A stretch of 53,307 bases of DNA, taken from contig JAFRLY010000036.1 in NCBI GenBank assembly GCA_017431005.1, forward strand, positions 1 to 53,307, written 5' to 3'. Shown here in pieces: positions 7,301 to 50,976 of this stretch. How positions within the stretch are numbered: position 1 is the stretch's first letter; each line of letters opens with the position of its first letter. Both the position numbers and the translations under genes were made by a program. The DNA is from Clostridia bacterium. GTDB taxonomy: Bacteria; Bacillota; Clostridia; Christensenellales; Aristaeellaceae. Below the pieces are notes generated by a model. That model did no database searches and had not been told where the DNA came from. It was given only the letters and a program-made list of their open reading frames with translations.

Positions 7301-7381
7301 GTGCGCCTTTCTGCAGCACCGCGAAAATGCCCGGGACCAGAAATCATGCGAATGTACGCATTCGCTTCGGAGGAATACCGT

Positions 7382-8701: not shown

Positions 8702-8765
8702 AAATTCAGACGGACAGATCCGGGCGGAGCGCGCAGGCGTTCCGCCTTCCTTTTACCCTGTTATC

Positions 8766-8794
8766 TTGACAATCCCCCCTCCGCGTGATAGAAA
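8766..8794 (+). promoter_or_regulatory. pheST promoter
   Basis: Perfect -35 TTGACA (8766-8771), 17-nt spacer, -10 TAGAAA (8789-8794) with TG one base upstream (extended -10). It rules out upstream in-frame GTG 8785 as a start, because that codon lies inside the promoter. No T-box sequence is present in the short leader. Confidence 0.75.
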
Positions 8795-8832
8795 TAGGAA
8801 CGTTACCGAGAAAGATTATGGGAGTGGATAGC

Positions 8833-9855: not shown

Positions 9856-9891
9856 GGACAACGGCGATCGCGCAAAGGAGGAAAGTTGACT

Positions 9892-12389: not shown

Positions 12390-12418
12390 TTGACAGAAAA
12401 AGTCCGTACTTGTATAAT
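12390..12418 (+). promoter_or_regulatory. Perfect consensus promoter of the sugar-transport cluster
   Basis: TTGACA (12390-12395), 17-nt spacer, TATAAT (12413-12418): six of six in both hexamers at the ideal spacing. Transcription should begin near 12425, leaving a ~90-nt leader. No cre box or obvious operator was seen, so any regulation by a repressor or of mRNA remains unidentified. Confidence 0.88.
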
Positions 12419-12514
12419 TGCGATGTCAAATTTCCTCGGGAAATCTTCATAAGAAAAAGTCCGGCAGCGAAGGGGGAAAACCATTTGATGTCGGATCAAA
12501 CAGGAGATGGGCAA

Positions 12515-15400
12515 ATGTCAAGAAAATGGCGAAATTTCCTCATTGCTGCTGTGGTGGTGGTTCTGTGCGTCGCAGCCATCTGGCTTCTGAGCCGGGGGAC
12601 TAATGACTTCAGCGCGAAGTATGCCGGCGTTGACCTGAGCACGGATGTCACAGGCATAGGCCGCGGCAACACCTATCAGGCCTATCTGGACGCGCACGCG
12701 AAGGCCGCAGAGACAACGGAAGCTGTTCCGGTGGACCTGTCCTCCTTCGAGGGCGGCGGAAAGCAGCAGGCGGAGGGTATCTATACCTCCGAGACGGATG
12801 AGGTTACCTGGAAGGTCGACGTACCGAAAGCGGGCCTGTATAACATCCGTCTGGACTATCTGACCACGGAAGCGCGCAGCGTGGATATTGAGCGTCAGCT
12901 GCTGATCAACGGCGAACTGCCGTTCACGGGAGCCGGGACGCTGACCTTCACGCGCCTGTGGACCGATGCCGGGGAGATCCGCCAGGATAACCAGGGCAAT
13001 GATATCCGGCCGAGCCAGGTGGAGCGGACCGGAGAAAAGCAGACGGCCTACTGCCGGGACGACATGGGCTACCATACCGAGCCCTACGCGTTTTATTTTA
13101 AGGCCGGGGAGAACACCCTCACCCTGAAATCGGTCAACGAGCCGATGATCGTCTGCGGGATCACTCTGACTCCGATCGTGAAGTACGCCTCCTATGAGGA
13201 ATATCTGGCCGCACAGCCGGAGGTGTCCATGTCGGAGGACGGCGGAAAGTATCTGGCAACCGTTCAGGGCGAAAGCGCGAAGCTGCGCTCCAGCCCGAGC
13301 CTGTATGCCCGGTATGACCGCAGTTCCTCCAAGACGGAGCCGTATTCCGTGACAAAGACCGTGCTCAACTATATCGGCGGGGACCCCTGGACGCATCCCG
13401 GCGAGTGGATTGAGTGGGACTTTGACGTGCCGGAAGACGGGTATTATCACATCTCCGTTAAAGCGAGACAGATGTATCAGCGCGGCGCACTGAGCGCCCG
13501 CACGGTCTATATCGACGGCGAGGTTCCGTTTGAGGATCTGGAGGCGGTGACCTTCGCCTACAACACGAACTGGGAGATGCGGACCCTGGGGAAGGATGGG
13601 GAGCATCCCTTCCGCTTCTATCTGAAGAAGGGCAGCCACAAGCTGCGGATGGAAGTGACGCTGGGCGAAATGGGACCGGTGCTGAACCGGGTGGAGGACA
13701 GCATTTTCCGCCTGAACCAGATTTACCGGAAGCTGCTGGTGCTGACCGGCGTCAATCCGGACCGGTTCCGCGACTACAACCTGGCCAAGGTGTATCCGGA
13801 AGCCATCGAGGCGATGGATCTGGAAAGCAAGCGCCTGTACAAGATCGTCGACGATATCGTCGCGACCACCGGGGAGAAGAGCGACCGGGCCGCGGTGGCT
13901 CAGACCCTGGCGAACCAGCTCGAAACCTTCGTGGAAAGCAACGAGCGGATTACCGAATCCTTCTCCAACTTCAAGGACAACATCACCGCCCTGGGCACGG
14001 CCATGCAGAACATGTCCGAAAGCAAGCTGGACGTGGACCTGATCGTAATCTCCGGCGAAAAGGCAAAGGTTCCGGACGTCCGGGAGAACTTCTTTGAGAA
14101 AGCCGCCCACGAGATCCGGAGCTGCGCGAGCTCCTTCTTCGTGGATTACAACTCCCTGGGCGACAAATATGATGATACCGACGACGTGCTCGATATCTGG
14201 ATTACCACGGGCCGTGACCAGAGCACCGTGCTGAAGACGATGGTGGACGACACCTTCACCGCGAAGACCGGCATCAAGGTCAACGTCAAGCTGGTGCAGG
14301 CGGATGCCATCCTGACGGCGGTTGTGGCCGGAAACGGTCCGGACCTCGTGCTCAGCGTCAGCGGCTGGTTCGCCGTGAACTACGCGATGCGCAACGCGGT
14401 GGAGAACCTGATGCAGTTCCCGGATTACGAGGAGGTCATCAAGCCCTTCTATCCGAGCATCCTGGAGCCGCTGACCTACAACAACGGGACCAAGGTCGGC
14501 GTTTACGCACTGCCTGAAACGCAGAACTTCCCGCTGCTGTTCTACCGCACCGACGTCATGGAGGAGCTTGGGCTTCCGATTCCCCAGACCTGGGAGGAGC
14601 TGATTTCCCAGCTGCCCACCATTCAGGGCAACAGCCTGACGGTGGCCGTCAACTTCCCGGATATCGCCGTGGCGGATATCTCCATCCTGAACTCAATGAT
14701 CTATCAGAACGGCGGCAGAATCTATGACGATGAAGCCAAGCATACCCTGATCGACAGCGAGGCCGGCGTGGCCGCCTTCAAGCAGTACACCAGCCTGTAC
14801 AACGACTATGGACTGCCGGTCGTGTTCGACTTTGTGAGCCGGTTCCGCAGCGGCGAAATGCCGCTGGGCGTCGCCTCCTACGCGACCTACAACACGCTGA
14901 TGGTATCCGCACCGGAAATCCGAGGGCTGTGGGACTTCACTCTCTTCCCCGGAACGGTGAAGGAGGACGGCACCATCGACCGGACGACCCAGACGGACGG
15001 TCTGTGCTGCATGATGGTCGCGACGAAGGACGAAAAGGTCAAGCAGAACGGCTGGGAATTCATGAAATGGTGGGTCAGCGAGGATGCGCAGGTCCGCTTC
15101 GGCCGTGAGATGGAAAGTATCCTGGGCGCTTCCGCCAGATATCAGACGGCTAACCGGGATGCGCTGAAGCGGCTGGCCTGGAGCAGCAGTCAGCTGAAGG
15201 TGCTGGAGGAGCAGATGTCCCATACCAGGGGCTTCCCGGAAATCGCCGGCGGTTATTCCACGACCAGGCATATCACGAACGCCGTGCGCCGCGTGATCAA
15301 CACGAAAGAGGATCCGCGGGAGACGCTGCTGAATTATGCCCGGACCATAAACGAAGAAATTCGGATCAAACGGCTGGAATTCAACCTGCCGGTGGACTGA
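12515..15400 (+). CDS. Membrane-anchored sugar ABC binding protein with two N-terminal beta-sandwich modules
   Basis: A 961-residue protein, more than twice the length of normal sugar-binding proteins. It has an N-terminal membrane helix (about 8-27, no lipobox Cys), a first CBM-like module (about 71-222), a second (about 245-395, with EWIEWDFDVPEDGYYHISV), and a helical linker (about 395-545). The extracellular solute-binding domain (about 556-950) has WITTGRDQSTVLKTMVDDTF and the FYRTDVMEELGLPIPQTWEE hinge typical of family-1 proteins. The modules resemble galactose-binding-fold CBM6/35-type domains by pattern only. Permeases follow immediately, so it should feed them. ATG 12515 is chosen because AGGAG lies 8 nt upstream; ATG 12488 is the alternative. 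Confidence 0.87.
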   Translation: MSRKWRNFLIAAVVVVLCVAAIWLLSRGTNDFSAKYAGVDLSTDVTGIGRGNTYQAYLDAHAKAAETTEAVPVDLSSFEGGGKQQAEGIYTSETDEVTWKVDVPKAGLYNIRLDYLTTEARSVDIERQLLINGELPFTGAGTLTFTRLWTDAGEIRQDNQGNDIRPSQVERTGEKQTAYCRDDMGYHTEPYAFYFKAGENTLTLKSVNEPMIVCGITLTPIVKYASYEEYLAAQPEVSMSEDGGKYLATVQGESAKLRSSPSLYARYDRSSSKTEPYSVTKTVLNYIGGDPWTHPGEWIEWDFDVPEDGYYHISVKARQMYQRGALSARTVYIDGEVPFEDLEAVTFAYNTNWEMRTLGKDGEHPFRFYLKKGSHKLRMEVTLGEMGPVLNRVEDSIFRLNQIYRKLLVLTGVNPDRFRDYNLAKVYPEAIEAMDLESKRLYKIVDDIVATTGEKSDRAAVAQTLANQLETFVESNERITESFSNFKDNITALGTAMQNMSESKLDVDLIVISGEKAKVPDVRENFFEKAAHEIRSCASSFFVDYNSLGDKYDDTDDVLDIWITTGRDQSTVLKTMVDDTFTAKTGIKVNVKLVQADAILTAVVAGNGPDLVLSVSGWFAVNYAMRNAVENLMQFPDYEEVIKPFYPSILEPLTYNNGTKVGVYALPETQNFPLLFYRTDVMEELGLPIPQTWEELISQLPTIQGNSLTVAVNFPDIAVADISILNSMIYQNGGRIYDDEAKHTLIDSEAGVAAFKQYTSLYNDYGLPVVFDFVSRFRSGEMPLGVASYATYNTLMVSAPEIRGLWDFTLFPGTVKEDGTIDRTTQTDGLCCMMVATKDEKVKQNGWEFMKWWVSEDAQVRFGREMESILGASARYQTANRDALKRLAWSSSQLKVLEEQMSHTRGFPEIAGGYSTTRHITNAVRRVINTKEDPRETLLNYARTINEEIRIKRLEFNLPVD

Positions 15401-15424
15401 GAAAGAAGAAGGGAGGGTTTCCAG

Positions 15425-16372
15425 ATGCAGCAGACTTCATCATTCACATCAAGATTTATCCGGATGAAGAAAGATCAGTTCGAGCATGGCTGGACGCTGG
15501 CCAAGCGGAATAAAACCTGCTACCTGTTCCTGGCGCCGTATGCGATTCTGTTCTTTATCTTCTTCATTCTCCCGATCGGGACATCCATTTACTACAGCTT
15601 TACCTATTACAACATTCTGGAACCGGCGCGCTTTATCGGCCTTCAGAACTATATCAACCTGGTTCTCCAGGACGAGGTGTTCCTGACGGCAATCAAAAAC
15701 ACGTTCATCATCGCCGTGATTACCGGGCCGGTGGGCTATATTCTGTCCTTCCTTTTCGCCTGGTTCATCAACGAGCTGCCGAAGTGGCTCCGGGCCGTCG
15801 CGGTTGTGATCTTCTACGCGCCTTCCATCGCTGGCGCGGCCTTCACGGTTTTCTCCATTATCTTCCGCGGAGACGCCTACGGCTGGTTCAACTCCCTGCT
15901 GCTGGAGTTCGGCCTGATTGAGGCGCCGCGCCTCTGGCTGACAGACCCGAACTACATGATGACCATCCTGATCATCGTCATCCTTTGGATGAGCATGGGC
16001 ACCGGCTTCCTGAGCTTCGTCGCCGGTTTCCAGGGCATCGACAAGAGCATGTATGAGGCGGGCTATGTAGACGGCGTCCGGAACCGGTGGCAGGAGCTGT
16101 ATCACATCACGCTGCCGAGCATGAAGCCCATGCTGCTGTTCGGCGCCGTCATGAGCATCACCTCCGCCTTCAACGTCTGCGACGTGCCGCGGGCCCTGTG
16201 CGGCTATCCCTCCACAGACTACGCGGCACGCACGGTCGTGACCCATCTGTTCGACTACGGCTTCAGCCGGTTCGAGATGGGCTACGCCAGCGCAATCGCC
16301 ACGCTGCTGTTCCTGGTGATGATTCTGTGCAAGAAAGCAATCAGCTCGCTGCTGGGAAGGGTGGGAACCTGA
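15425..16372 (+). CDS. Sugar ABC transporter permease (MalF/UgpA type)
   Basis: A 315-residue permease with six membrane helices, the first at about 32-55 (FLAPYAILFFIFFILPIG). The EAA loop that docks the ATPase is visible near 215-240 (MYEAGYVDGVRNRWQELYHI, followed by LPSMKPM). GGGAGG lies upstream of ATG 15425, 24 nt after the binding-protein gene. It pairs with the next permease, their ends being one base apart. No ATPase gene lies in the cluster, so a shared MsmX/UgpC-type ATPase is expected elsewhere. Confidence 0.93.
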   Translation: MQQTSSFTSRFIRMKKDQFEHGWTLAKRNKTCYLFLAPYAILFFIFFILPIGTSIYYSFTYYNILEPARFIGLQNYINLVLQDEVFLTAIKNTFIIAVITGPVGYILSFLFAWFINELPKWLRAVAVVIFYAPSIAGAAFTVFSIIFRGDAYGWFNSLLLEFGLIEAPRLWLTDPNYMMTILIIVILWMSMGTGFLSFVAGFQGIDKSMYEAGYVDGVRNRWQELYHITLPSMKPMLLFGAVMSITSAFNVCDVPRALCGYPSTDYAARTVVTHLFDYGFSRFEMGYASAIATLLFLVMILCKKAISSLLGRVGT

Positions 16373-16373
16373 T

Positions 16374-17597
16374 ATGAGTGAAAATAATATCGTGAAATCC
16401 AACGGCACGCTGATTACCATCGACGGCAAAAAGACCCGGGGCCGGCTCGAGGCCGGTGAGACCGGCGCCGCCTTCTACAAAAAGGGCAGCGCCGAGCCCC
16501 TTCTGCAGTGGCACTATACCCGGCTCCACCGGATGGACAATATCCGCCGGGGCGGAACCAGCAGCCAGATTACGGTGATTCTGAAGGACGACAGCCGGTA
16601 TATCTTTGATCTGGATCAGGGCCTGAAGGTCTACAGCCAGATGGACAAGAATTGGGCCGACAAGCCGGTCGTCCGCAAAACCCGCGGCGACGAGCTGCAC
16701 CGGCTGGCGGAGCTGCGGGGCGAGAAAATCCAGGTCAAAAAGCACCTGATCACCCGCCGCCATCCGAACCGGTCCATCGCCGGCGATATCGGCATCTATC
16801 TGATGCTGCTGCTGGTCGGAATCGCGATGATTTTCCCGCTGGTCTTCCTGGTCGGCTCCGCCCTGAAGCCCCTGGACGAGCTGTTCCGCTTCCCGCCGCC
16901 CGTGTGGCCGCAGCATCCGACGCTGGATAACTTCTCGGATCTGTTCGTGACCATGGGACAGAGCTGGGTGCCGTTCAGCCGGTATCTGGTCAACACGGTG
17001 TTCATCACCCTGATCGGTACCTTCGGGCATCTGGTGATCGCCAGCATGGCGGCCTTCGTCCTGGCGAAATACGAGTTCCCCGGCGGCAGAACCTTCTTCG
17101 CCATCGTCACGACCTGCCTGATGTTCTCCGGCTATGTGACAGGCATTCCGAACTACCTGATCATGAGCCGGCTGGGCATGATCGACACCTACTGGGCTCT
17201 GGTTCTGCCCGCGTTCGCCGCGCCGATCGGACTGTTCCTGATGAAGCAGTTCATGGAAGGACTTCCCACCGCCCTGATTGAGGCGGCCACCATCGACGGC
17301 GCCAGCCAGTTCCGGATCTTCTGGAGCATCGTGATGCCCAACGTCAAGCCGGCCTGGCTGACGATGATCATCTTCAGCGTGCAGAGCCTGTGGAACACCA
17401 GCGCCAGCACCGTGATCTATTCCGAGGCGCGGAAGACCCTGGTCTACGCCCTGCAGCAGATCCAGGCGGGCGGTATTGCCCGTACCGGCCAGGTAGCCGC
17501 GGCCAACGTCATCATCGTGGCAGTCCCCATCCTCATCTTCATTCTGAGCCAGAGCCGGATCCTGGAGACCATGGCCTCCTCCGGTATCAAGGATTAA
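16374..17597 (+). CDS. Sugar ABC transporter permease (MalG type) with an extra N-terminal domain
   Basis: A 407-residue protein of which residues ~140-407 are an ordinary MalG-type permease with six helices and an EAA loop (LIEAATIDGASQFRIFWSIV, about 302-321). Typical MalG-type permeases have 270-300 residues; the additional ~125 N-terminal residues are soluble and beta-rich (GTLITIDGKKTRGRLEAGET, later ITVILKDDSRYIFDLDQG). The pattern suggests a small PH/GRAM-like barrel on the cytoplasmic side. That fold is a guess and must be modelled. The gene starts 1 nt after the preceding stop, so the two are coupled. Confidence 0.88.
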   Translation: MSENNIVKSNGTLITIDGKKTRGRLEAGETGAAFYKKGSAEPLLQWHYTRLHRMDNIRRGGTSSQITVILKDDSRYIFDLDQGLKVYSQMDKNWADKPVVRKTRGDELHRLAELRGEKIQVKKHLITRRHPNRSIAGDIGIYLMLLLVGIAMIFPLVFLVGSALKPLDELFRFPPPVWPQHPTLDNFSDLFVTMGQSWVPFSRYLVNTVFITLIGTFGHLVIASMAAFVLAKYEFPGGRTFFAIVTTCLMFSGYVTGIPNYLIMSRLGMIDTYWALVLPAFAAPIGLFLMKQFMEGLPTALIEAATIDGASQFRIFWSIVMPNVKPAWLTMIIFSVQSLWNTSASTVIYSEARKTLVYALQQIQAGGIARTGQVAAANVIIVAVPILIFILSQSRILETMASSGIKD

Positions 17598-17607
17598 GGA
17601 GCGCGGT

Positions 17608-19761
17608 ATGATGAAAAGAGCACGCAACAGGAGGGGAGATCAAGTGAAAGGGATTATCAAGGCTGCCGTGATTCTGTGCCTGATTGTCCTGCTGCCCTTC
17701 TCCGCCTTCGCGGATGACAGCTACAATCTGAACCAGGACGGCTTCAGCACATCCTATTCCTATATTTATGACTACTGGGGAGACGTACAGGAAGCACCGA
17801 ACCCCTATCGGGTCAAAACGGTGATTGATACCACGACCATCGGACTCGAGCAGCTGGGCGGAAAAGCCATGAACAAGCCGCAGAGCCTGTTCGTTCAGGG
17901 CCAGGAGCTGTATGTCGCTGATACCGTCAACAACAGAATCCTGCAGATCCACCGGGAGGGAAACGAATTTGAGCTCGCCCGGATCATTGACACGGTTTAC
18001 GGCCCCGCCGGGGATTTCGCGATGGCCGAGAAAATCCAGACCACCAAGGATGATTATAGCGGAACGGTTAACGTGCTGGCAGCCACGGAAAAGAAGCTGG
18101 ACGATGTGAAAACCGCGTACAGCAAGGGCCCTGACAGCGAGGAATATGAGCAGACGATCATTCCGATGCTGAATGCGGTGATCGCCGGCGAGGATCCGTT
18201 CGCTTCGCTGGCCCGGCCGGCTGCACCGGAGGCTGTGACCGTGGAGCCCGTCGCGGAAGAGGAAGCGGCGGCGGAACCGGCAGGGGAGGAGCCGGCGGAG
18301 GAAGCGCCGGCCGCCGAGGCCGAAGCCGAGCCGGCGCCCGAGGCCGAGACAGCCGCGGAGGCTGAGACCGTTCCGGAGGAGCCCGCGCAGCTGGACACCG
18401 ACCTGAGCAGTCAGGACCGGGACGCGCTGATTCAGCAGCAGATCGAACGGCTCACGCAGATGGCGGAGGAAGCCCGCGCCGCGGAGGAGGAAGCCTATCT
18501 GGCCGCGGAAAAGGCGGAGGAAGATGCACGGACCGCGGGCTGCCGGATCTGGGAATATGACCGATGGTCCCTGGACGCGGACGGAAAGGCGGTTTCCGCC
18601 TTCACCGCGCCCTATGACGTGAACGTGGATCCGGAGGGCAACATTTACGTCGCCGACACCAACGGCAAGCGCATCCTGAAAATGGACGCCGAATGCAACG
18701 TCCTGCTTGAGTTCACCAAGCCCATTGACGCGACCTTCGACCAGACGCTGGACTTCCTGCCGAAGAAGATCGTCATTGACGTGGCCGGCCGGGTTTACGC
18801 CCTGTGCCAGAACGCTAACAAGGGTCTGGTCAAGTACGAGGCGGACGGCACCTTCTCCGGCTTCATCGGAGCGAACGCCGTCACGGTTTCCATGGGCGAA
18901 TACATCTGGAAGCGTTACTTCCAGACCAAGGAGCAGCGGGCCGCCTCCGCGGCGTTTGTTCCGACGGAATACGAGAACATCTATATTGATGAGGAAGGCT
19001 TCATCTACGCGACGAACACGGTTTTTGACGAGTACGACCTGCTGTATGACAACGCGAAGCCCATCCGCCGGCTGAACAGCCTGGGGAACGATATCCTGAT
19101 CAAGAACGACCGGTATCCTCCCATCGGCGATCAGTACTGGGTGGAGCAGAGCACGCAGAACGGCCCCAGCAAGTTCACGGATATCACGGTCATGGGCAAC
19201 GATATCTACGTGGCGCTGGACCGGACCCGCGGCCGGCTTTTCGCCTACGACAGCCAGGGTGTTCTGCTCTGGGCGTTCGGCACGAAGGGCAACGCGGACG
19301 GCGCGTTCAACTCCGCCGTCAGCGTGGAGCATATGGGCTATGACCTGTTTGTGCTGGACCAGCTGAAGAACAGCATCACGGTCTTCACGCCGACGGAGTA
19401 CGGCCGGCTGATCTACGACGCGAACGAAACCTACATGAACGGTGAGTATGAAAAGAGCGCGGAGATCTGGGGCGACGTCATGCGGATGAACGCCAACTAC
19501 CCGCTGGCCTACCGGGGCATCGGCCGGGCTATCCTCCGCGAGGAGGATTACGAGGGCGCCATGAATTACTTCAAAATGGCGCATGACCGGGAGAACTACG
19601 GCAGAGCCTTCAAGCTCTACCGGAAGGTCTGGATCGAGCAGAACATCCTGTGGATCGTTGTGGTGCTGGCTGTGCTGCTGATTGTGCCGCTGGTCATCGG
19701 AAGGATCAAGAGAACAAAGTGGGAGGTGATCATGCATGAGCAAAGCAAAGTCCGTCAGTAA
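17608..19761 (+). CDS. Exported NHL-propeller / TPR protein with C-terminal membrane anchor
   Basis: A 717-residue protein with a signal peptide (core VILCLIVLLPFSAFA). NHL-type propeller blades follow, e.g. NKPQSLFVQGQELYVADTVN and NVDPEGNIYVADTNGKRILK. A Glu/Ala-rich, probably coiled-coil insertion (about 190-315) separates the first blade from the rest. After the last blade comes a TPR-like helical repeat (about 610-665, YMNGEYEKSAEIWGDVMRMN), then one membrane helix (about 675-697) and a short basic tail. The propeller is therefore outside the cell. Function is unknown; the context suggests a partner of the sugar transporters. ATG 17608 has AAGGAG 6 nt upstream; GTG 17644 with GGAGGGGA is an equally possible start. 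Confidence 0.82.
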   Translation: MMKRARNRRGDQVKGIIKAAVILCLIVLLPFSAFADDSYNLNQDGFSTSYSYIYDYWGDVQEAPNPYRVKTVIDTTTIGLEQLGGKAMNKPQSLFVQGQELYVADTVNNRILQIHREGNEFELARIIDTVYGPAGDFAMAEKIQTTKDDYSGTVNVLAATEKKLDDVKTAYSKGPDSEEYEQTIIPMLNAVIAGEDPFASLARPAAPEAVTVEPVAEEEAAAEPAGEEPAEEAPAAEAEAEPAPEAETAAEAETVPEEPAQLDTDLSSQDRDALIQQQIERLTQMAEEARAAEEEAYLAAEKAEEDARTAGCRIWEYDRWSLDADGKAVSAFTAPYDVNVDPEGNIYVADTNGKRILKMDAECNVLLEFTKPIDATFDQTLDFLPKKIVIDVAGRVYALCQNANKGLVKYEADGTFSGFIGANAVTVSMGEYIWKRYFQTKEQRAASAAFVPTEYENIYIDEEGFIYATNTVFDEYDLLYDNAKPIRRLNSLGNDILIKNDRYPPIGDQYWVEQSTQNGPSKFTDITVMGNDIYVALDRTRGRLFAYDSQGVLLWAFGTKGNADGAFNSAVSVEHMGYDLFVLDQLKNSITVFTPTEYGRLIYDANETYMNGEYEKSAEIWGDVMRMNANYPLAYRGIGRAILREEDYEGAMNYFKMAHDRENYGRAFKLYRKVWIEQNILWIVVVLAVLLIVPLVIGRIKRTKWEVIMHEQSKVRQ

Positions 19762-20431
19762 CGCGCAGGATTCCGCACGGGCGGCGAAAACCAGTACATG
19801 GTGGGGAAAATACAAGGACTCCCTCCGGTATTCGCTGTATGTGATTACGCATCCCTTCGACGGTTTCTGGGACCTGATCCATGAGAAGCGGGGAACGCTC
19901 GCCGCGGCGCACACGTTCCTGTTCCTCTTCCTGCTGGTCCGGGTGCTGAAGCTGATGCTGACCAGCTTCCAGTTCATTTCCGCCCCGGTGCAGTACATGA
20001 ACATCTTTGAAGAAGCGGCTTCGCTGCTGCTGCCCTTCCTGATCCTGTGCCTGGCCAACTGGGCGCTGACCACCCTGTTCGACGGCAAGGGACGCTTCCC
20101 GGATATCTACATGGCCATGTGCTACGCCCTCGTTCCGTACATCATGATCCAGCTGCCGATGACGATCATCAGCAACGGCCTGACCTTCGAGGAGGGAAGC
20201 TTCTTCACCGTGATGCTGTCCTTCAGCGTGATCTGGTGCGTCTTCCTGGTGTTCGTCGGCCTGATGGAGGTCCATGATTACGGCCCGGGCAAAACGCTGA
20301 TCTTTATCGGCGTGACGATCGTCGGCGCCGCGGTGATTATCTTCCTGGTGCTGACGTTCTTCAGCCTGCTGAGCGACGCGATCGGGTACTTCGTCAGCCT
20401 GTACCGTGAGATCGTGTACCGGATGTATTAA
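19736..20431 (+). CDS. Yip1-family integral membrane protein
   Basis: A 231-residue membrane protein with an N-terminal soluble part (YVITHPFDGFWDLIHEKRGT is typical of bacterial Yip1-domain proteins) and five hydrophobic segments at about 57-80, 93-112, 124-148, 157-180 and 187-215. The function of bacterial Yip1 proteins is not known. It overlaps the end of the NHL/TPR gene by 26 nt and has GGAGGTGAT upstream, showing tight coupling. It is followed by the DUF5696-like gene. Confidence 0.82.
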   Translation: MSKAKSVSNAQDSARAAKTSTWWGKYKDSLRYSLYVITHPFDGFWDLIHEKRGTLAAAHTFLFLFLLVRVLKLMLTSFQFISAPVQYMNIFEEAASLLLPFLILCLANWALTTLFDGKGRFPDIYMAMCYALVPYIMIQLPMTIISNGLTFEEGSFFTVMLSFSVIWCVFLVFVGLMEVHDYGPGKTLIFIGVTIVGAAVIIFLVLTFFSLLSDAIGYFVSLYREIVYRMY

Positions 20432-20445
20432 GGGGGAAGATGAAG

Positions 20446-23019
20446 ATGAGAAAAAGACCGTTCATTCTGAAGCTGCTTCCCTGGCTCATCCTTCTGCTGG
20501 CAGTGGCGGCGCTTGTGGTTTTTGTGTTCATCCCGATTTATTCGGAAAAGGAAACCTCCTTCAGCGCGGCGCCTGAAATCCACAGCTATTCCGGAGACGG
20601 CGGCCCCCTGGTGATGGAGAACGACCGGCTGCGGTTTGAGATGGACGCGAACACCACCCAGTTCAGCGTGACCGACAAGGCCTCCGGCAAGGTGTGGTAT
20701 TCGAACCCGCAGGACAGGGACAGCGACCCGATCGCCCTGGGCTCCAACAAGTATCTGCTGTCCTCGACCCTGAACGTGACCTACACGGCCTCGGGCGGCG
20801 ACATCGAGCTGAACAACTATACCTACTCCATTCAGAACCAGACCTACGACGTGAGCCAGCTGGACGACGGCTCCGTCCGGGTGGATTACGCCATCGGCAA
20901 GATCGAGAAGGAATACATGATTCCCGGCGCGATCACCGTGGAAAGGTTCAACGCCTTCGCGGAAAAAATGTCCAAGGCGAACCAGAAGAAGCTGAAGTCC
21001 TACTACTCCCAGTCCAAGCCGGAGGATCTGGCCAAGAAGGAAAACAAGGAAGAGTTCCTGGCCATGTATCCCAGCGCGGCGGAGCAGGCGATGTATATCC
21101 TGAAGTCCGACATCAAGGCCTCCAACAAGGAAAAGGTGGAGGAATACTTCGCGGACGCGGGCTACACCCAGGAGGACTACGAGCTGGACAGCCAGCTGGT
21201 GGCTGAAAAGAAATCCAACAACGGCCCGGTCTTCAACGCCTCCATGATCTACAGCCTGGAGGACGGCGACCTGGTCGTGAAGGTGCCCTATTCCGAAATG
21301 CGCTGCGACACCAGCGCGCCCCTGACCTTCGTCAGCGTGCTGCCGTACTTCGGCGCGGCCGGCACGGATCAGGAGGGCAGCCTGCTGATTCCGGAGGGCG
21401 GCGGCGCCCTGATCCGGTTCAACAACGGCAAGCTGGCGCAGGGCGCGTATTACGCGAACCTGTACGGCTGGGACTACGCGACGGAGCGCAGGGAAGCGAT
21501 CACCGAAACGGAAAACACATTCCCGGTGTTCGGCGTGGTGCAGGACGACGGCTCCTTCCTGTGCATCATTGAGGAGGGCAGCGCCTACGCCGGCATCAAC
21601 GCCGACGTGGCCGGCCGGTACAACAGCTACAACTTCGTTTACAGCAAGTACAACGTGATCCACTACGACCGGTTCAACGTTTCCGCCCGGACGACGGAGC
21701 AGATGTACATGTATGAGATCCGGATTCCGCAGGAAACGGTCACCCACCGGTACCGCTTCGTGGAGGGCGGGGACTATGCGAAGCTGGCCCACGCCTACGG
21801 CGATTACCTGCGCGGCAATCCCGACATGAAGAGCGACGCGGCCGGCGAGGACATGCCAGTGAACATCGAGCTGGTCGGCGCCATCAACAAGGTGGTTCCG
21901 AAGCTGGGCATTCCGGTGGACTCTGTGGTGCCCGTCACCACCTTTGACGAGGCGGACGCCATCATGAACGACCTGCAGGGAAGCGGCGTCCGGGGCCTGA
22001 ACATCCGGATGACCGGCTGGGCCAACGGCGGCGTGCGGCAGAAGGTGCTGACAGGCATTCACCCGGTCGGCCAGATCGGCGGTGACAGCGGCATGAAGAA
22101 GCTGATTGCCGACGCCGGCAGCAAGAACGTCAGCCTGTATTTCGACGGCATCAGCTGCTTCGCCTACGACAGCGGCCTGTTTGACGGGTTCACGGCTTTC
22201 TCCGACGCCGCGCGGTTCACAACCCGCGAGCAGGTGAAGCTGTACAAATACAGCATCATCACCTTCCAGCAGGCTGATTATCAGGATCCCTACTACCTGG
22301 TCAAGCCGGGCTATGCCAGCAAAAACGCGGACAACCTGATCAGCGGGCTGGCCGGCCGGGGCGCCGCAGGCGTCGCCTTCCGGGACATCGGAAATCTGCT
22401 GAGTTCCGACTACACGGTAACGGATCTGTATACCCGGGAAATGGTCAAGGCAGAAAACGTAAAAACGCTGAAGAGCGCCGCGGCCAAGGGCCTGAAGATC
22501 AGCATCAAGGAGGGCAATGATTACGCTGCTCCCTACGCGGATCTGATCACGGACATGGACCTGACCGGTAACGCCTACGCGATTATCAATGAGCGGATTC
22601 CGTTCTACCAGATCGCGATTCACGGTATGAAGGATTATACAGGCGAGGCCATCAACCTGGCGGGAGATCATACGGAAGCGCTGCTGGAGTGCGCGGAGTA
22701 CGGCGCCGGCCTGAATTACACCTTCATGAAGGCGGATACCGCCGTGCTGCGGGACACCATGTATTCTGTCTATCACTCCGCGTCCTGGGACCGGTGGAAG
22801 GATTCCCTGATACCTGAACTGCTGCGCTACCAGCAGGAGATGGCCGGCCTGAACCGGATGAGGATCACCGGACATGAGCGGCTGTCCGACGAGGTGACCG
22901 TTACCGAATACGAGGACGGCACCCGGGTGTATGTCAACTACGGGGATGCGGAATACAAAGCCGGCGCGAGCCGGATTCCCGCGAGGGATTACCTGGTGGA
23001 AAGGGGGAAGGCGCAGTGA
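20446..23019 (+). CDS. DUF5696-like membrane-anchored protein with glycoside-hydrolase-like fold
   Basis: An ~857-residue protein with one N-terminal membrane helix (about 8-32). A beta-rich region (about 50-450) resembles the super-sandwich of large glycosidases and carries a helical Lys-rich insertion (about 165-255). A putative TIM-barrel region follows (about 475-775). Acidic residues at barrel-strand-like ends are in SLYFDGIS (about 567), VAFRDIGN (about 647) and KEGNDYA (about 690). FYQIAIHGMKDYTGEAINL (about 720-738) matches what I remember of DUF5696 proteins. No activity can be named. ATG 20446 has AGGGGG 9 nt upstream; the ATG at 20440 is too close to it. Confidence 0.8.
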   Translation: MRKRPFILKLLPWLILLLAVAALVVFVFIPIYSEKETSFSAAPEIHSYSGDGGPLVMENDRLRFEMDANTTQFSVTDKASGKVWYSNPQDRDSDPIALGSNKYLLSSTLNVTYTASGGDIELNNYTYSIQNQTYDVSQLDDGSVRVDYAIGKIEKEYMIPGAITVERFNAFAEKMSKANQKKLKSYYSQSKPEDLAKKENKEEFLAMYPSAAEQAMYILKSDIKASNKEKVEEYFADAGYTQEDYELDSQLVAEKKSNNGPVFNASMIYSLEDGDLVVKVPYSEMRCDTSAPLTFVSVLPYFGAAGTDQEGSLLIPEGGGALIRFNNGKLAQGAYYANLYGWDYATERREAITETENTFPVFGVVQDDGSFLCIIEEGSAYAGINADVAGRYNSYNFVYSKYNVIHYDRFNVSARTTEQMYMYEIRIPQETVTHRYRFVEGGDYAKLAHAYGDYLRGNPDMKSDAAGEDMPVNIELVGAINKVVPKLGIPVDSVVPVTTFDEADAIMNDLQGSGVRGLNIRMTGWANGGVRQKVLTGIHPVGQIGGDSGMKKLIADAGSKNVSLYFDGISCFAYDSGLFDGFTAFSDAARFTTREQVKLYKYSIITFQQADYQDPYYLVKPGYASKNADNLISGLAGRGAAGVAFRDIGNLLSSDYTVTDLYTREMVKAENVKTLKSAAAKGLKISIKEGNDYAAPYADLITDMDLTGNAYAIINERIPFYQIAIHGMKDYTGEAINLAGDHTEALLECAEYGAGLNYTFMKADTAVLRDTMYSVYHSASWDRWKDSLIPELLRYQQEMAGLNRMRITGHERLSDEVTVTEYEDGTRVYVNYGDAEYKAGASRIPARDYLVERGKAQ

Positions 23020-23993
23020 GCGGAAAGAGCCGTAAATCCATATTTGCCAGCATTGCCGAGGCTGTGCAGATGTATATCCCCGGAACCAAAGTCTATCACA
23101 CAATGCCGGCCAGAAGGGCACGCATCGGCACGCTTTTCATTCTTCCGTTTATCATCGGCTTCATTTTCTTCATGGTTCAGCCTCTGATCTTCTCGTTCCA
23201 GATGAGTCTTCATGAGGTAAAGCTGAGAGCCGGCGGCGGCTTCGAAATGGTATGGAACAACTACCATAACTACAACTACGCCCTGTTCAGGGATCCTGAT
23301 TTCAACCAGGATCTGCTGACGGAAAGCGGACGGATGGTAGTGAACACGATCGCGACTCTGGTCATGAGTTTCGTGATCGCGGTCATCCTGAACCAGAAGT
23401 TCAAGGGGCGCATCATCTGCCGCGTGATCTTCTTCCTGCCCGTGATTCTGTCCTCGGGCGTGCTGCCTGGCATCGAAAGCTCCAACGAGTTCTATAACAT
23501 GATGGGTGATATCGCCAACAACGTGCAGAACTCGTCAGGGGTCAACATCTCGGCGTCCCTGCAGCAGCTGCTGCAGGTGTCGGGCGTCGGCAGCGGAGTC
23601 TTCGACGTCATCTTCCAGATGATCGACGCCATCTACGATATCGTCATGGCGTCCGGCATCCAGATCATCATCTTCCTGAGCGGACTGCAGTCCATTTCTC
23701 CCTCGCTGTACGAGGCCGCGGACGTGGAAGGCTGCTCCGCGTGGGAATCCTTCTGGAAGATCACCTTCCCGATGGTCAGCCCGCTGCTGCTGGTGAACTG
23801 CATTTACACCATCATCGACTTCTTCATGAAGAACGACAACAGCGTGGTGGAGCTGATCAACTCGACGATGTACGGCGTGCAGCTGAACTTCGGCGTCGCG
23901 TCGGCCATGAGCTGGATCTACTTCGGCGTCGCGCTTCTGTTCATCGCGATCAGCACCTTCATTATCACAAGGGTGGTGAAGTCTTATGAGTAA
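23016..23993 (+). CDS. Sugar ABC transporter permease (MalF/UgpA type), second transporter
   Basis: A 325-residue six-helix permease whose EAA loop reads LYEAADVEGCSAWESFWKIT (about 231-250). Its GTG start overlaps the TGA of the DUF5696-like gene (GTGA), with AAGGGGG upstream. Between helices 2 and 3 it carries an external stretch of about 50 residues (NNVQNSSGVNISASLQQLLQ). It pairs with the following permease, which overlaps it by 8 nt. Confidence 0.92.
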   Translation: MSGKSRKSIFASIAEAVQMYIPGTKVYHTMPARRARIGTLFILPFIIGFIFFMVQPLIFSFQMSLHEVKLRAGGGFEMVWNNYHNYNYALFRDPDFNQDLLTESGRMVVNTIATLVMSFVIAVILNQKFKGRIICRVIFFLPVILSSGVLPGIESSNEFYNMMGDIANNVQNSSGVNISASLQQLLQVSGVGSGVFDVIFQMIDAIYDIVMASGIQIIIFLSGLQSISPSLYEAADVEGCSAWESFWKITFPMVSPLLLVNCIYTIIDFFMKNDNSVVELINSTMYGVQLNFGVASAMSWIYFGVALLFIAISTFIITRVVKSYE

Positions 23994-24996
23994 GGATAAT
24001 ACGGTCTTCATCGGAAAGAACAAAAGCTTCTGGGAACGGAACCGGCGCAGCGAGGGCTATCTGCTGAAGCGCCGCTCCGGCCAGATCGCACTGTCCGTGA
24101 TCCGGGCGCTGCTGATGTTCGGCCTGTGCTTCATGATCATTCAGCCGATGCTGACGCGCCTGTCCATGAGCTTCATGGAGGAGCGGGACCTGTACGACTC
24201 CACCATCATCCTGCTGCCCAGGCATGTGACGCTGGACAACTACCGGATTGTGGCGGATCTGACCAGCTTCCCGACATCCATGCTGAACACTCTCTGGATT
24301 TCGCTGCTGATTTCGGCCTGCCAGGTTGTGGCCGCGACGCTCGTGGCCTACGGGTTCGCACGGTTTGATTTCCCGCTGAAAAAGTTCTGGTTCGGCTGCG
24401 TGGTGGCACTGATCATTATCCCGCCCCAGACCATCCAGACCTCCCTGTACATGACCTTCGCCAACTTCGACATTCTGGGGCTGATCACCCTGATCAAGGG
24501 CTCCACGATCAACCTCCGTTCCTCCATCCTTCCGTATGTGCTGATGAGCCTGACCTGCGTGGGCCTGAAGAACGGACTGTTCATCTACATGCTGCGTCAG
24601 TATTTCAGGAGCGTTCCGGAAAGCCTGGAGGAGGCAGCCTACGTGGACGGCTGCAGCACGATGCACACATTTGTGAAAATCATGCTGCCTGACGCCATGC
24701 CGACCATTGCCAGCTGCTTCCTGTTCAGCTTCGTCTGGCAGTGGACCGACCTGTTCTATTCCCGGAACTTCCTTTCGGGCTATACGCTGTATTCTGTACA
24801 GCTCAGCACGATTGTCAGCCGGATGTCCCGCTATTTCTCCGACAATGCGAATCAGTCCATCGTGGTTCCCAACGGCCGGCAGCTGCAGCTGATTTCCATC
24901 GGCGTACTGATCTGCTGCATTCCGCTGATCATTCTGTACTGCTTCACACAGCGTACCTTTGTGGAAAGCCTGGCCATGACCGGTTCCAAGGAATAA
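23986..24996 (+). CDS. Sugar ABC transporter permease (MalG type), second transporter
   Basis: A 336-residue permease with six helices and an EAA loop SLEEAAYVDGCSTMHTFVKI (about 212-231). It lacks the extra N-terminal domain of the first MalG-type permease, having only a ~40-residue basic tail before helix 1. It overlaps the previous gene by 8 nt (ATGAGTAA). The second binding protein follows after a 159-nt gap with its own promoter. Confidence 0.92.
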   Translation: MSKDNTVFIGKNKSFWERNRRSEGYLLKRRSGQIALSVIRALLMFGLCFMIIQPMLTRLSMSFMEERDLYDSTIILLPRHVTLDNYRIVADLTSFPTSMLNTLWISLLISACQVVAATLVAYGFARFDFPLKKFWFGCVVALIIIPPQTIQTSLYMTFANFDILGLITLIKGSTINLRSSILPYVLMSLTCVGLKNGLFIYMLRQYFRSVPESLEEAAYVDGCSTMHTFVKIMLPDAMPTIASCFLFSFVWQWTDLFYSRNFLSGYTLYSVQLSTIVSRMSRYFSDNANQSIVVPNGRQLQLISIGVLICCIPLIILYCFTQRTFVESLAMTGSKE

Positions 24997-25032
24997 AGCA
25001 AAATTTGTACGGACAAAAAACAGAAGAGGTAC

Positions 25033-25061
25033 TTGAAAAGCTGTGGGATTCGGTATATAAT
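25033..25061 (+). promoter_or_regulatory. Promoter of the second sugar-binding-protein gene
   Basis: TTGAAA (25033-25038), 17-nt spacer, TATAAT (25056-25061). A separate promoter would give the binding protein more transcript than the membrane genes before it, as is usual for these transporters. Confidence 0.78.
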
Positions 25062-25155
25062 ACCCGTGAAACGGACGGAATTACCGTCAAAAAATCAGAA
25101 ACTGTGCAGCAATGGCGAAATTGCCGCATAGGAATATAACAAGGAGGGTTTTTCC

Positions 25156-26601
25156 ATGAAGAAAATTCTGGCTCTGGTTCTTGCCGCGATGATGCTGATG
25201 AGCATGTGCAGCTTTGCTGCGGCAGAGGCTCCTGAAGGCTATCCGGAGGTTATTGAAGGCCTCGATTTCGGCGGACAGACGATCTATCTGTACGACTGGT
25301 GGAGCAATGATGATGAAAATCACAGCGCCCGCAATGCCGAACCCGATGACGACGAAGCGGCTCTGTACGCTTACCGTGACTGGCTGGAAGAGACCTACAA
25401 CTGCAAGCTCGTTGAAAAGGCTCTGAGCGACTGGGCGGGCAATCCCCAGGCCCTGGCTGAAATGGTCATGAACGGCGACAATTCCGTACTGTGCCTGGTG
25501 GCGCTGGCTTCCGACTTCGTCGGCACTCCTCTGGCCAACGATCTGTTCATGCCCTGGACCATCGACCTGAGCAAGGACAAGTGGGTTGCCGCCGACCTGG
25601 AAATGATGACCAAGGACGGCAAGGTTTACGGCGTGCATGCCGGCAAGGAACCCCGCAGCTGCCTGTATTTCAACAAGCGGGTGCTGGAGGAAGCCGGTAT
25701 CAACTGGGAAGAGATCTATGATCATCAGGCGAACGGTACCTGGACCTGGGACGTTTGGAAGACCTATCTGGACAAGGTTCAGAAGGACGTTGACAACGAC
25801 GGCATCATCGACGTCTGGGGCCTGACCGGTTCCGGCGACGAGCTGGCCAACGCGCTGGTGTTCTCCAACAACGCCACCTACTTCGACTGGGAAGACGGCA
25901 AGCTGGTGAATGCCACCACCCGTCAGGAATGCATGGACGCCCTGCAGTTCCGCAAGGATCTGGGCGACAACTACATGGCGCCTCAGCCCGAAGGCTCCAA
26001 CTGGGACTGGTTCAAAGCCTACTTCAAGCAGAATCCTGTCGGATTCTACATTGGACAGACCTGGGAAGCCTACAACCCCACCTCTGAAATGGACGACATG
26101 GAAGATGACTGGGGCTGTGTCATGGTTCCCATGGGCCCGAACGCGACCACGCTGGTGGCTATGGCCTGCGACAACATCTACGGCATCCCGAACGTCTATG
26201 ACGAAGAGACTTCCCTGAAGCTGCAGCAGATCTACGATCTGTACACCGATCCCACCCCCGGCGCCGATCCCGACGCTGCGATCACCTCCAAGTATGTGAA
26301 GTGCTCCGATGAGCGCGCTGTGGATGAAACCTACGCGATGATGATGGAAGACGAGCACATCTGCGTCAACCGCACCTATCTGCTGGGCTCCACCAACGAC
26401 ATCCTGGGCAGCTCCCTGCTGTGGGGCGTGCTGCAGAGCAACACGGTTGCCGAAGCGCTGGAGAGCGCCGCTCCCTTCTGGCAGGATAAGCTGGACGTGT
26501 TCAACGGCGTGAAGACGCAGGAGCAGGTTGACGCGGAGAATGCCGCGGAAGCCGAAGCCGCTGCCGCTGAGGAAGCTGCTGAAGAGTCCACCGGTGACTG
26601 A
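25156..26601 (+). CDS. Extracellular sugar-binding protein (family 1), second transporter
   Basis: A 481-residue exported binding protein. The signal peptide ends near FAAAEA; the cysteine at residue 18 (LMSMC) does not fit a lipobox, since the preceding residue is Met. The mature part shows family-1 features: YFNKRVLEEAGINWEEIYDH, then WTWDVWKTYLDKVQKDVDND, and many aromatic residues able to stack on sugar rings. A Glu/Ala-rich tail closes the protein. It follows two permeases and precedes a xylanase and xylulokinase, so xylo-oligosaccharides are likely but unproven ligands. AAGGAGG precedes ATG 25156. Confidence 0.9.
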   Translation: MKKILALVLAAMMLMSMCSFAAAEAPEGYPEVIEGLDFGGQTIYLYDWWSNDDENHSARNAEPDDDEAALYAYRDWLEETYNCKLVEKALSDWAGNPQALAEMVMNGDNSVLCLVALASDFVGTPLANDLFMPWTIDLSKDKWVAADLEMMTKDGKVYGVHAGKEPRSCLYFNKRVLEEAGINWEEIYDHQANGTWTWDVWKTYLDKVQKDVDNDGIIDVWGLTGSGDELANALVFSNNATYFDWEDGKLVNATTRQECMDALQFRKDLGDNYMAPQPEGSNWDWFKAYFKQNPVGFYIGQTWEAYNPTSEMDDMEDDWGCVMVPMGPNATTLVAMACDNIYGIPNVYDEETSLKLQQIYDLYTDPTPGADPDAAITSKYVKCSDERAVDETYAMMMEDEHICVNRTYLLGSTNDILGSSLLWGVLQSNTVAEALESAAPFWQDKLDVFNGVKTQEQVDAENAAEAEAAAAEEAAEESTGD

Positions 26602-26623
26602 TAACTGCTGAATCCGTTTTCCC

Positions 26624-26651
26624 GGACCGCTCGAAGGAGCGGTCCTTTTTT
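26624..26651 (+). terminator. Terminator between binding-protein and xylanase genes
   Basis: A perfect 9-bp stem GGACCGCTC/GAGCGGTCC with a GAAG loop (26624-26645), followed by six T. Only 12 nt separate its T run from the xylanase ribosome-binding site, so it probably lets a fraction of transcripts through. Confidence 0.9.
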
Positions 26652-26678
26652 AAAGAATGACACAGGAGGTTCCTTTGG

Positions 26679-27767
26679 ATGAATACCAGACGCATGATGA
26701 CATTGCTGCTGTGCGCCTGCCTGGGCCTGACGGTGTCAGGCGCAGCCGCAGATACGTTACCGGCGCTGAAGGATGTGTACGCCGGCCGGTTTGATATCGG
26801 AACTGCTGCGCCGCGAAGCGCCTTTACGGATATTCAGCTGATGAAGCTCATGAAGGAACAGTTCAGTATTCTGACGCCGGAAAATGAGCTGAAACCGGAC
26901 TCTGTGCTGGATGTGGCCGGAAGCCAGAAGCTGATCCGGGAAACCGGAGACGAAACCAGCGTGGCTGTCAGGTTTGACGCAGCCAACGGTCTGCTCCGGT
27001 TTGCTTCAAACAACGGACTGAAGGTGCACGGGCACACTCTGCTGTGGCATAATCAGACACCGGTTACCTTCTTTCATGAGGGCTATGACAGCAAAAAACC
27101 GATGGTTACGCGCGATGTTATGCTGGGCAGAATGGAAAACTACATCAAAGGCGTAATGGAATATATGCAGGAGAACTATCCCGGCGTGGTGGTTTCCTGG
27201 GACGTGCTGAACGAGGCGATCGACGACGGTACGGGCAAGCTGCGCAATTCCAACTGGCTGAAGGTGATCGGGGAGGATTATCCGTCTTATGCCTTCGCCT
27301 TCGCGCGGAAATACGCGGAGGAGGGTACACTGCTGTATTACAATGACTACAACACAGCCTATGCGGGAAAGCGGAAGGGTATCATCAGCCTGCTGAAGAC
27401 GCTGATGCCGGAGGGCAACATCGACGGCTATGGCTTCCAGATGCATCACAAAAGCGGAGAACCTTCCATGGATATGATCACAAAATCCGTAGAGGAGATC
27501 GCAGCGCTGAGCCTGAAGCTCCGTGTGAGCGAGCTGGACGTGGGCATCAGCGCCAAAAGCGAAATCAGTCTGCAGAAGCAGGCGGAGAAATATGCGGCTG
27601 TCATGAAGCTGATGCTGCGCTTCAGCGACCAGACGGAAGCCGTTCAGGTCTGGGGCATCAAGGACGACATGAGCTGGCGGAACAAGGAATTCCCGTTGCT
27701 GTTTGATGCTGCCCGGAATCCGAAACCGGCATTCTTTGCCGTGGCGGATCCTGAAGGCTTTCAGTAA
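26679..27767 (+). CDS. Secreted GH10 endo-beta-1,4-xylanase
   Basis: A 362-residue single-domain GH10 enzyme. The signal peptide ends near AAA-DT (about 24). GH10 hallmarks are HGHTLLWHNQTP (118-129), acid/base Glu179 in SWDVLNEAI and nucleophile Glu285 in RVSELDVG. ENELKP (68-73) is the usual first substrate-site motif. There is no carbohydrate-binding module or anchor, so it should act on soluble or already loosened xylan near the cell. AGGAGG lies 9 nt before ATG 26679. It lies between a sugar-binding protein and xylulokinase, making a xylan use locus likely. Confidence 0.95.
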   Translation: MNTRRMMTLLLCACLGLTVSGAAADTLPALKDVYAGRFDIGTAAPRSAFTDIQLMKLMKEQFSILTPENELKPDSVLDVAGSQKLIRETGDETSVAVRFDAANGLLRFASNNGLKVHGHTLLWHNQTPVTFFHEGYDSKKPMVTRDVMLGRMENYIKGVMEYMQENYPGVVVSWDVLNEAIDDGTGKLRNSNWLKVIGEDYPSYAFAFARKYAEEGTLLYYNDYNTAYAGKRKGIISLLKTLMPEGNIDGYGFQMHHKSGEPSMDMITKSVEEIAALSLKLRVSELDVGISAKSEISLQKQAEKYAAVMKLMLRFSDQTEAVQVWGIKDDMSWRNKEFPLLFDAARNPKPAFFAVADPEGFQ

Positions 27768-47300: not shown

Positions 47301-48944
<1,644 letters not shown>

Positions 48945-50945: not shown

Positions 50946-50976
50946 AGGAAAAACGGGAAATAGGGAGGAGATACAT

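Follow-up and report, generated by a model that had tools for sequence, protein, structure and literature searches.

ATP-binding cassette (ABC) importers of the CUT1 kind normally work without extra subunits. The locus described here is an eight-gene transport operon in a window that comprises the whole of contig C38 (53,307 bases; 3.0-Mb genome, 63 contigs, 85% complete). It resembles the CUT1 importers with a shared MsmK/MalK ATPase in having a binding protein, two BPD_transp_1 permeases with EAA-type loops, and MalK-type ATPases encoded elsewhere. It differs from them in that there are two permease pairs per operon, in that the binding protein is membrane-anchored and about 970 amino acids (aa) long, and in that three extra membrane proteins, i.e. 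an NHL-propeller protein, a Yip1-domain protein and a DUF5696 protein, are added, which are always linked in the loci examined. The genes belong to a carbohydrate island on the forward strand between pheT (ends at 12300) and nrdR (starts at 29408), in the order SBP1, PermA, PermB, NHL, Yip1, DUF5696, PermC, PermD, SBP2, GH10 and xylulokinase, where SBP1 and SBP2 are sugar-binding proteins (Table 1).

Gram-positive polysaccharide utilization loci (gpPULs) are defined by a polysaccharide-degrading enzyme, a transport system and a transcriptional regulator (PMC5320581). The importers of the window do adjoin a polysaccharide-degrading enzyme (GH10). In contrast to gpPULs, no sugar regulator was found among the scanned genes beside the operon, the neighbours being pheT, xylB and nrdR, and the accessible part of PMC5320581 names no NHL, Yip1 or DUF5696 component. 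The GH129 and GH101 glycosidases (NagBb, the GH129-like DagB, EngBF) share the fold of DUF5696, and GH129 is also related to it by profile homology. However, DUF5696 carries an N-terminal membrane anchor or a lipobox, the window copy does not keep the acid/base residue or the residues of the 5wzq site discussed below, and in the loci examined full-length DUF5696 never occurs without the transporter module. In the Sus system of Bacteroidota, surface glycan capture is coupled to import. Our locus may be likened to it in outline, but it belongs to a Gram-positive envelope with ABC-type import, and ten scanned proteins gave no SusC/SusD family match at E 0.001.

The original prediction held that the three middle genes belong with the permeases that surround them, and that a lack of conserved neighbourhoods in related genomes would speak against this. 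We collected 209 loci (75 + 54 + 80, the 80 being the best of 574 in a scan of named GTDB genomes); after five loci with short DUF5696 relatives had been dropped and the window added, there were 205 full-length DUF5696 frames, 199 of them distinct. Open reading frames (ORFs) were called mechanically, and hidden Markov models of the module genes were built from own-family loci and then applied to all sets. The 20-kb neighbourhoods leave out G037:C20, G005:C194, G028:C41, G028:C70, a second short match in G075, one match each in G045:C67 and G181:C81, and matches below the cut-off. NHL and Yip1 were found upstream of full-length DUF5696 in 192 of 192 distinct loci with at least 2.3 kb of upstream sequence, and PermC and PermD downstream in 188 of 188 distinct loci with at least 2.2 kb on that side. 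All eight genes are on one strand and in the window's order in 153 of the 166 loci that are long enough on both sides. The objection of a missing conserved neighbourhood is thereby removed.

The same association is seen at the level of whole genomes. DUF5696 was matched in 54 of 100 relatives at E 1e-3 (50 over the cut-off) and in 37 of 398 phylum-wide genomes at 1e-10; the best 80 of 574 named GTDB relatives include Paenibacillus, Cohnella, Caldicoprobacter, Lederbergia, Halalkalibacter, Lachnospiraceae and others. With at most three DUF5696 and two NHL-Yip1 candidates scored per genome, NHL-Yip1 was present in 38 of the 398 genomes, i.e. in all 37 with DUF5696 and, as one draft fragment (G342), in the other 361. 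In other words, the two are jointly present or absent in 397 of 398 genomes (Fisher p 2e-51 on the assumption of independent genomes, which these are not). When all candidates were counted (for G434 the DUF5696 count comes from at most three), the copy numbers of NHL-Yip1 and DUF5696 agreed in 10 of 10 module-bearing genomes, and an eleventh genome had neither. Together with the gene fusion described below, these figures strongly support the assignment of the middle genes to the permeases.

The location and copy number of SBP1 are more variable. All 37 genomes with DUF5696 have its N-terminal region, as does one of 21 genomes without DUF5696 (G106, partial). SBP1 is upstream of the module in 160 of 174 loci; in the other 14 it is either downstream (six loci) or on other contigs of the genome (eight loci). 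Six genomes (G200, G441, G339, G430, G389 and G493) have equal numbers of SBP1 and DUF5696, whereas in expanded genomes DUF5696 outnumbers SBP1, fragments counted (11 vs 6 in G139, 10 vs 4 in G161, 20 vs 9 in G181). The strongest DUF5696 expansions, with 8 to 20 matches per genome including fragments, are those of G139, G161, G181, G234 and G264. As the linkage of the other genes is constant while SBP1 varies in both respects, the unit that is never seen apart is NHL-Yip1-DUF5696-PermC-PermD. The idea of two importers enclosing a membrane module thus needs to be qualified: two permease pairs do flank it, but they are not equal, since SBP1-PermA-PermB is separable (14/174) and PermC/PermD never is.

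It could be argued that the operon merely joins two independent importers and unrelated membrane proteins by a regulatory link, given that the SBP1-PermA-PermB cassette and SBP2 are movable and that ABC importers of this type normally need no additional subunits. We find this highly improbable in view of the 192/192 and 188/188 linkage, the parallel occurrence across 398 genomes and the fusion of NHL with Yip1. Moreover, the linkage persists even though DUF5696 has diverged, with only 22-46% identity to the window copy in 27 sampled loci.

The NHL protein starts with a signal peptide or hydrophobic N terminus, followed by a propeller with an acidic Ala/Glu insert, a helical segment and a transmembrane helix (680-698) near the C terminus. 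The acidic insert, which is rich in Ala, Glu and Pro (18220-18540, inside the propeller region), makes the protein longer than its homologues in the other loci examined. The protein had been described as combining an NHL propeller with TPR repeats. The propeller is recognised, but no TPR repeats are found by Pfam; a homologue model does show a helical-hairpin segment. The Yip1 assignment stands well above the family cut-off, and hydropathy indicates four strong hydrophobic segments. NHL and Yip1 form a single open frame in 69 of 192 loci, and on a FastTree phylogeny of DUF5696 (198 tips, 72 fused) the fusion state changed at least seven times. Of 127 unfused pairs, counted without de-duplication of loci and within a gap window of -150 to +200 bp, 123 overlap or abut. 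That the fusion recurs is good evidence for NHL and Yip1 working as a single unit. A fused homologue from Caldicoprobacter oshimai was modelled with a predicted local distance difference test score (pLDDT) of 90.5; its model shows a propeller and a helical-hairpin segment, together with a long helix and a membrane domain made of helices. In a fold search the propeller resembled the NHL domains of TRIM71 and Thin; the 50 rows of that search list beta-propellers, and no row bears on the Yip1 half. The structure predictions used 58 of 81 input rows for DUF5696, 24 of 26 for the fused protein, 13 of 53 for NHL and 10 of 55 for Yip1.

The DUF5696 protein has an N-terminal transmembrane anchor at 15-33 according to hydropathy. 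The propeller, SBP1 and DUF5696 would all face outward because of their hydrophobic N-terminal anchors or transmembrane segments. In a Foldseek search with the AlphaFold2 model of DUF5696 (pLDDT 88.5, predicted template modelling score 0.84) the matches were glycan-active enzymes. The best was 5opq (E 1.7e-32), and NagBb (5wzr) gave a template modelling score of 0.71 by target length; the GH129-like DagB and GH129 NagBb ranked highest, then GH101, with GH31 and GH36 further down. The model has a beta-sandwich, a TIM barrel and a C-terminal beta domain, the domains that are also given for DagB (PMC5698469). A profile comparison of DUF5696 with four GH129-like proteins gave 99.7% and E 1.1e-25.

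The agreement is less complete at the level of residues, which were counted in 198 homologues, the window copy excluded. Asp435 of NagBb, which the same source gives as catalytic (PMC5698469), aligns with D649 of the window, and Asp is present in 136 of the 198 homologues. Several other barrel positions are kept even more strongly (W527 194, E753 194, R666 190, D717 181, N693 176, P721 198 and G729 198 of 198), the window itself having N717 where 181 homologues have D717. Glu478 of NagBb, which we take to be the acid/base residue, aligns with Lys690; Glu occurs at this position in 35 and Asp in 33 of the 198 homologues, and Asp649 and Glu690 are found together in only 18. Glu691 adjoins the position, and a misalignment by one residue is possible; with one residue of slack, Asp649 is accompanied by Glu in 43 and by any acid in 72 of the 198. 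Four His/Asp positions altered in the NagBb 5wzq mutant, which would form a metal site, are not kept in the DUF5696 protein of the window, e.g. NagBb LHLDGW corresponds to IRMTGW. DUF5696 is not assigned to GH129 here. To judge from the alignments, DUF5696 is a GH129 relative in which the catalytic pair is mostly not maintained. Since the two catalytic positions are rarely both kept, glycan binding appears at least as likely as hydrolysis; the protein may bind glycan or cut it by means of other residues.

One reading of these data is that DUF5696 is catalytically active as a glycosidase at the surface and removes side groups, for instance from glucuronoarabinoxylan, before uptake, with NHL-Yip1 as its holder and the importers as ordinary ones. 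The GH129 similarity in fold and profile, the conserved Asp649, the acids at or beside position 690 when slack is allowed, and the strongly kept E753 and D717 agree with such an enzyme. We nevertheless consider it unlikely, as the acid/base position is Lys in the window and Glu in only 35 of 198 homologues, Asp649 and Glu690 rarely occur together, the residues changed in 5wzq align with unrelated ones, and the enzymes that flank the module aim at different glycans, which one specific hydrolase would hardly serve. The original prediction let the middle module present, process or sense a polysaccharide and couple it to uptake. Of these options processing is the least supported, given that most members do not conserve the GH129 catalytic pair, and presenting, sensing and coupling to uptake are putative roles.

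A search of relatives for GH129 with PF11308 at 1e-20 gave 0 of 61 and 0 of 299 genomes, and no control matched either. The threshold is too strict for the result to bear on absence: locus L104, from one of those 61 genomes (G075), contains a protein that matches NagBb at 1e-193 and PF11308 with only 30 bits, i.e. a GH129 by sequence. Two short DUF5696 relatives (L101:8937-10634 and L103:9040-10764) also match DUF6259 and, by eye, keep the GH129 Asp and Glu; this type is possibly an uncharacterised glycosidase group.

SBP1 has 970 aa, with a hydrophobic N-terminal anchor (17-35), a region of about 560 aa that is kept in relatives, and a C-terminal sugar-binding domain. As read from the sequence, the 560-aa region contains two weak CBM35/golvesin-like stretches and a helical-looking stalk. 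The binding protein had been described as bearing carbohydrate-binding modules (CBMs), but both stretches stay under their Pfam cut-offs (CBM_35 21.7 vs 28 bits, Golvesin_C 23.6 vs 31.6 bits). PermB has an N-terminal extension of about 125 aa (16374-16750) with no Pfam match, which is probably cytosolic and possibly a regulatory domain. The extension is common in own-family loci, many of which have PermB homologues of about 400-420 aa; across the phylum most homologues measure 280-300 aa, and most of the shorter ones lack it. An EAA-type loop is visible in all four permeases of the window, and a loose EAA pattern was found across the loci in 173 of 176 PermA, 151 of 178 PermB, 150 of 196 PermC and 181 of 196 PermD. 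Because most members carry the pattern, an ATPase probably still docks to both permease pairs in the majority of loci; where the pattern is missing, most often in PermC, either it failed or the loop may really have been lost. The importers had been predicted to lack an ATPase of their own, and this agrees with the data. An ATPase-like frame was near the module in only 1 of 75, 1 of 54 and 0 of 80 loci, with a pattern that recovers the three MalK-type proteins of the genome; these OB_MalK-type matches are on contigs C11, C2 and C55, and none is on C38.

The glycan context is varied. In the window a GH10 xylanase and a xylulokinase adjoin the importers. A first sample of flanking ORFs (81 of the 158 with 350 aa or more, taken from 52 of 80 loci) contained GH43 (16), GH10 (6) and GH26 (3), and a second (65 of the 186 with 300 aa or more; of 91 drawn, 26 were discarded by eye for module overlap or antisense position) contained GH10 (8), arabinofuranosidase C-domains (4) and GH43 (3), all as raw counts. 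GH43-CBM6 or GH26-CBM27 proteins flank the module in one genus, and GH53, GH5, GH39 and GH130 proteins and CBM4/6 domains are also near sampled relatives. As the flanking enzymes vary while the core stays constant, a general hemicellulose machine with locus-specific binding proteins fits better than one fixed hydrolytic activity.

Regulator families are present in some flanks (among the 81 ORFs, with counts that may overlap: GntR 6, Peripla_BP_3 6, AraC-type HTH 4, response regulator 3, histidine kinase 2). They would suit a different role, in which NHL-Yip1-DUF5696 is a transport-coupled sensor of extracellular glycan that signals through the permeases or Yip1 to the importers or to gene expression; so would a propeller outside the cell, a multi-span membrane domain and a catalytic pair that is mostly unconserved. 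This role seems distinctly unlikely to us: no Pfam signalling domain was found in NHL, Yip1 or DUF5696, regulators are not constant neighbours and are missing from the scanned genes beside the window operon, and most PermC and PermD proteins keep the EAA-type loop.

The transcription signals agree with the operon structure first proposed, i.e. a perfect promoter ahead of eight tightly packed genes. The site at 12390-12418 matches the consensus at 12 of 12 positions and is the only exact TTGACA-17-TATAAT in the window (chance would give 0.005 on the two strands of 53 kb). The gaps between the eight genes are, in order, 24, 1, 10, -26, 8, -4 and -8 bp. Further downstream the spacing is wider (159 bp from PermD to SBP2, 77 bp to GH10, 76 bp to xylulokinase), and the 11/12 site ahead of SBP2 and the clear GH10 match confirm a separately promoted second binding protein followed by a xylanase. 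Because a strong terminator-like hairpin with a T6 tail separates SBP2 and GH10, GH10 may be on a separate transcript. A cre-like (CcpA) operator was looked for and is unsupported, with five one-mismatch matches in the window against 5.8 expected and none near 12390.

The genes are thus tightly packed, inherited together and for the most part kept in order over a broad range of Bacillota. Taken together, we lean towards the reading that they specify a single conserved machine, bound to the membrane, for hemicellulose capture and import, and that many Gram-positive bacteria probably use such an eight-gene machine to grip plant polysaccharides and feed the fragments to two importers. From the linkage, the fusion, the fold and the genomic context we infer the following order of events, complex and cargo. 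GH10 or a counterpart would cut xylan at the cell surface, and the anchored SBP1 would hold the released chains with its N-terminal domains. DUF5696, anchored outside the membrane, would bind glycan at the surface, and some members may trim it. The NHL propeller, fixed by its transmembrane helix and its Yip1 partner, would hold DUF5696 beside PermC/PermD; NHL, Yip1, DUF5696 and the permeases may form a physical complex, for which fusion and linkage speak indirectly. The two importer cores, PermA/B with SBP1 and PermC/D with SBP2, would import different oligosaccharides with energy from one MalK/MsmK-type ATPase that they share and that is encoded elsewhere, and xylose would enter metabolism through XylB.

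Several observations weigh against a single machine of this kind. A conserved operon can reflect co-regulation without a complex. SBP1 is not a fixed stoichiometric part, because it is separable from the module and outnumbered by DUF5696 in expanded genomes; its cassette lies after the module or elsewhere in the 14 loci mentioned, and SBP2 is near enough to be seen in no more than 126 of 151 loci. The module is missing from the five loci L101-L105, whose PF18952 relatives are short (565-623 aa; 42-135 bits, i.e. over the cut-off). The CBM-like stretches of SBP1 are sub-threshold, the enzyme counts in the flanks are raw, and the terminator-like hairpin sets GH10 apart from the importer genes. 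A loose lipobox pattern, which in DUF5696 speaks for membrane tethering, was found in 0 of 73 SBP1, 62 of 82 SBP2 and 27 of 80 DUF5696 named homologues, but it also matched 6 of 77 PermB, so it gives false positives.

A more specific version of the capture-and-import machine, which we put forward tentatively, is a so far undescribed multi-subunit polysaccharide importer of Bacillota in which a propeller-Yip1 scaffold holds the DUF5696 barrel, its catalytic pair largely lost, above a permease pair of its own to guide the glycan, with chains coming from a tethered receptor, which supplies a second importer core too. This would be a functional Gram-positive counterpart of SusCD.

Table 1. Features of the carbohydrate island, with positions in the window
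Feature	Position	Strand	Evidence
Sigma-70-type promoter-like site, TTGACA-17-TATAAT (12/12)	12390..12418	+	exact consensus
SBP1, membrane-anchored sugar-binding protein	12488..15400 (alternative start 12515)	+	SBP_bac_8 7.5e-21; anchor 17-35
PermA, MalF/UgpA-like permease	15425..16372	+	BPD_transp_1 8e-13; EAA-type loop
PermB, MalG/UgpE-like permease	16374..17597	+	BPD_transp_1 7.9e-10; UgpE model 4.5e-27, under its cut-off
NHL-propeller protein	17608..19761	+	NHL 3.9e-08; hydropathy; model of fused homologue
Yip1-domain membrane protein	19736..20431	+	PF04893 1.5e-15, 58 bits vs cut-off 28.6; 26-bp overlap with NHL
DUF5696 protein	20440..23019	+	PF18952 1.4e-182, 608.9 bits vs cut-off 25.6, positions 2-612/612
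PermC, permease, GTG start	23016..23993	+	BPD_transp_1 1.9e-08
PermD, permease	23986..24996	+	BPD_transp_1 2.1e-14
Promoter-like site ahead of SBP2, TTGAAA-17-TATAAT (11/12)	25033..25061	+	
SBP2, secreted binding protein	25156..26601	+	SBP_bac_8 9.8e-10
Terminator-like hairpin, T6 tail, between SBP2 and GH10	26624..26645	+	
GH10 xylanase, hydrophobic N terminus (signal peptide)	26679..27767	+	PF00331 1.7e-82; hydropathy 6-24
Xylulokinase XylB	27844..29370	+	TIGR01312 573.5 bits, cut-off 380.25

The island is directly preceded by dnaA, pheS and pheT (7301-12300), within a housekeeping run. Beyond it are thrS, PEP carboxykinase and oxaloacetate decarboxylase-type subunits, a 542-aa protein with a Cpn60/TCP1 family match of 5e-80 (47316-48944), and a Band-7/SPFH protein with zinc ribbons at its C terminus (50938-52029).

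DUF5696 is not mentioned in the open-licence PMC literature, a search that lies outside subscription papers and preprints, and the same literature gave nothing on Yip1 with Paenibacillus polysaccharide utilization or on NHL repeats with xylan ABC transport in clostridia. NHL and Yip1 are absent from the main texts of PMC4765114 and PMC5658599, whose loci were not matched to these genes. The parts, i.e. ABC importer, glycosidase-like fold, NHL and Yip1, are of known kinds, and it is a possibility that their assembly is categorically new.

NHL-Yip1 with DUF5696 and two permeases, which occurs in Paenibacillus, Cohnella, Caldicoprobacter and Lachnospiraceae and often has hemicellulases of varying families at its flanks, offers a concrete candidate, accessible to genetic tests, for the way in which Gram-positive polysaccharide degraders retain what they hydrolyse at the surface and link cutting to uptake. 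It also provides a first functional context for DUF5696 and for a bacterial Yip1 subfamily. If the reading is true, the guide machine would be the link between surface hydrolysis and uptake.

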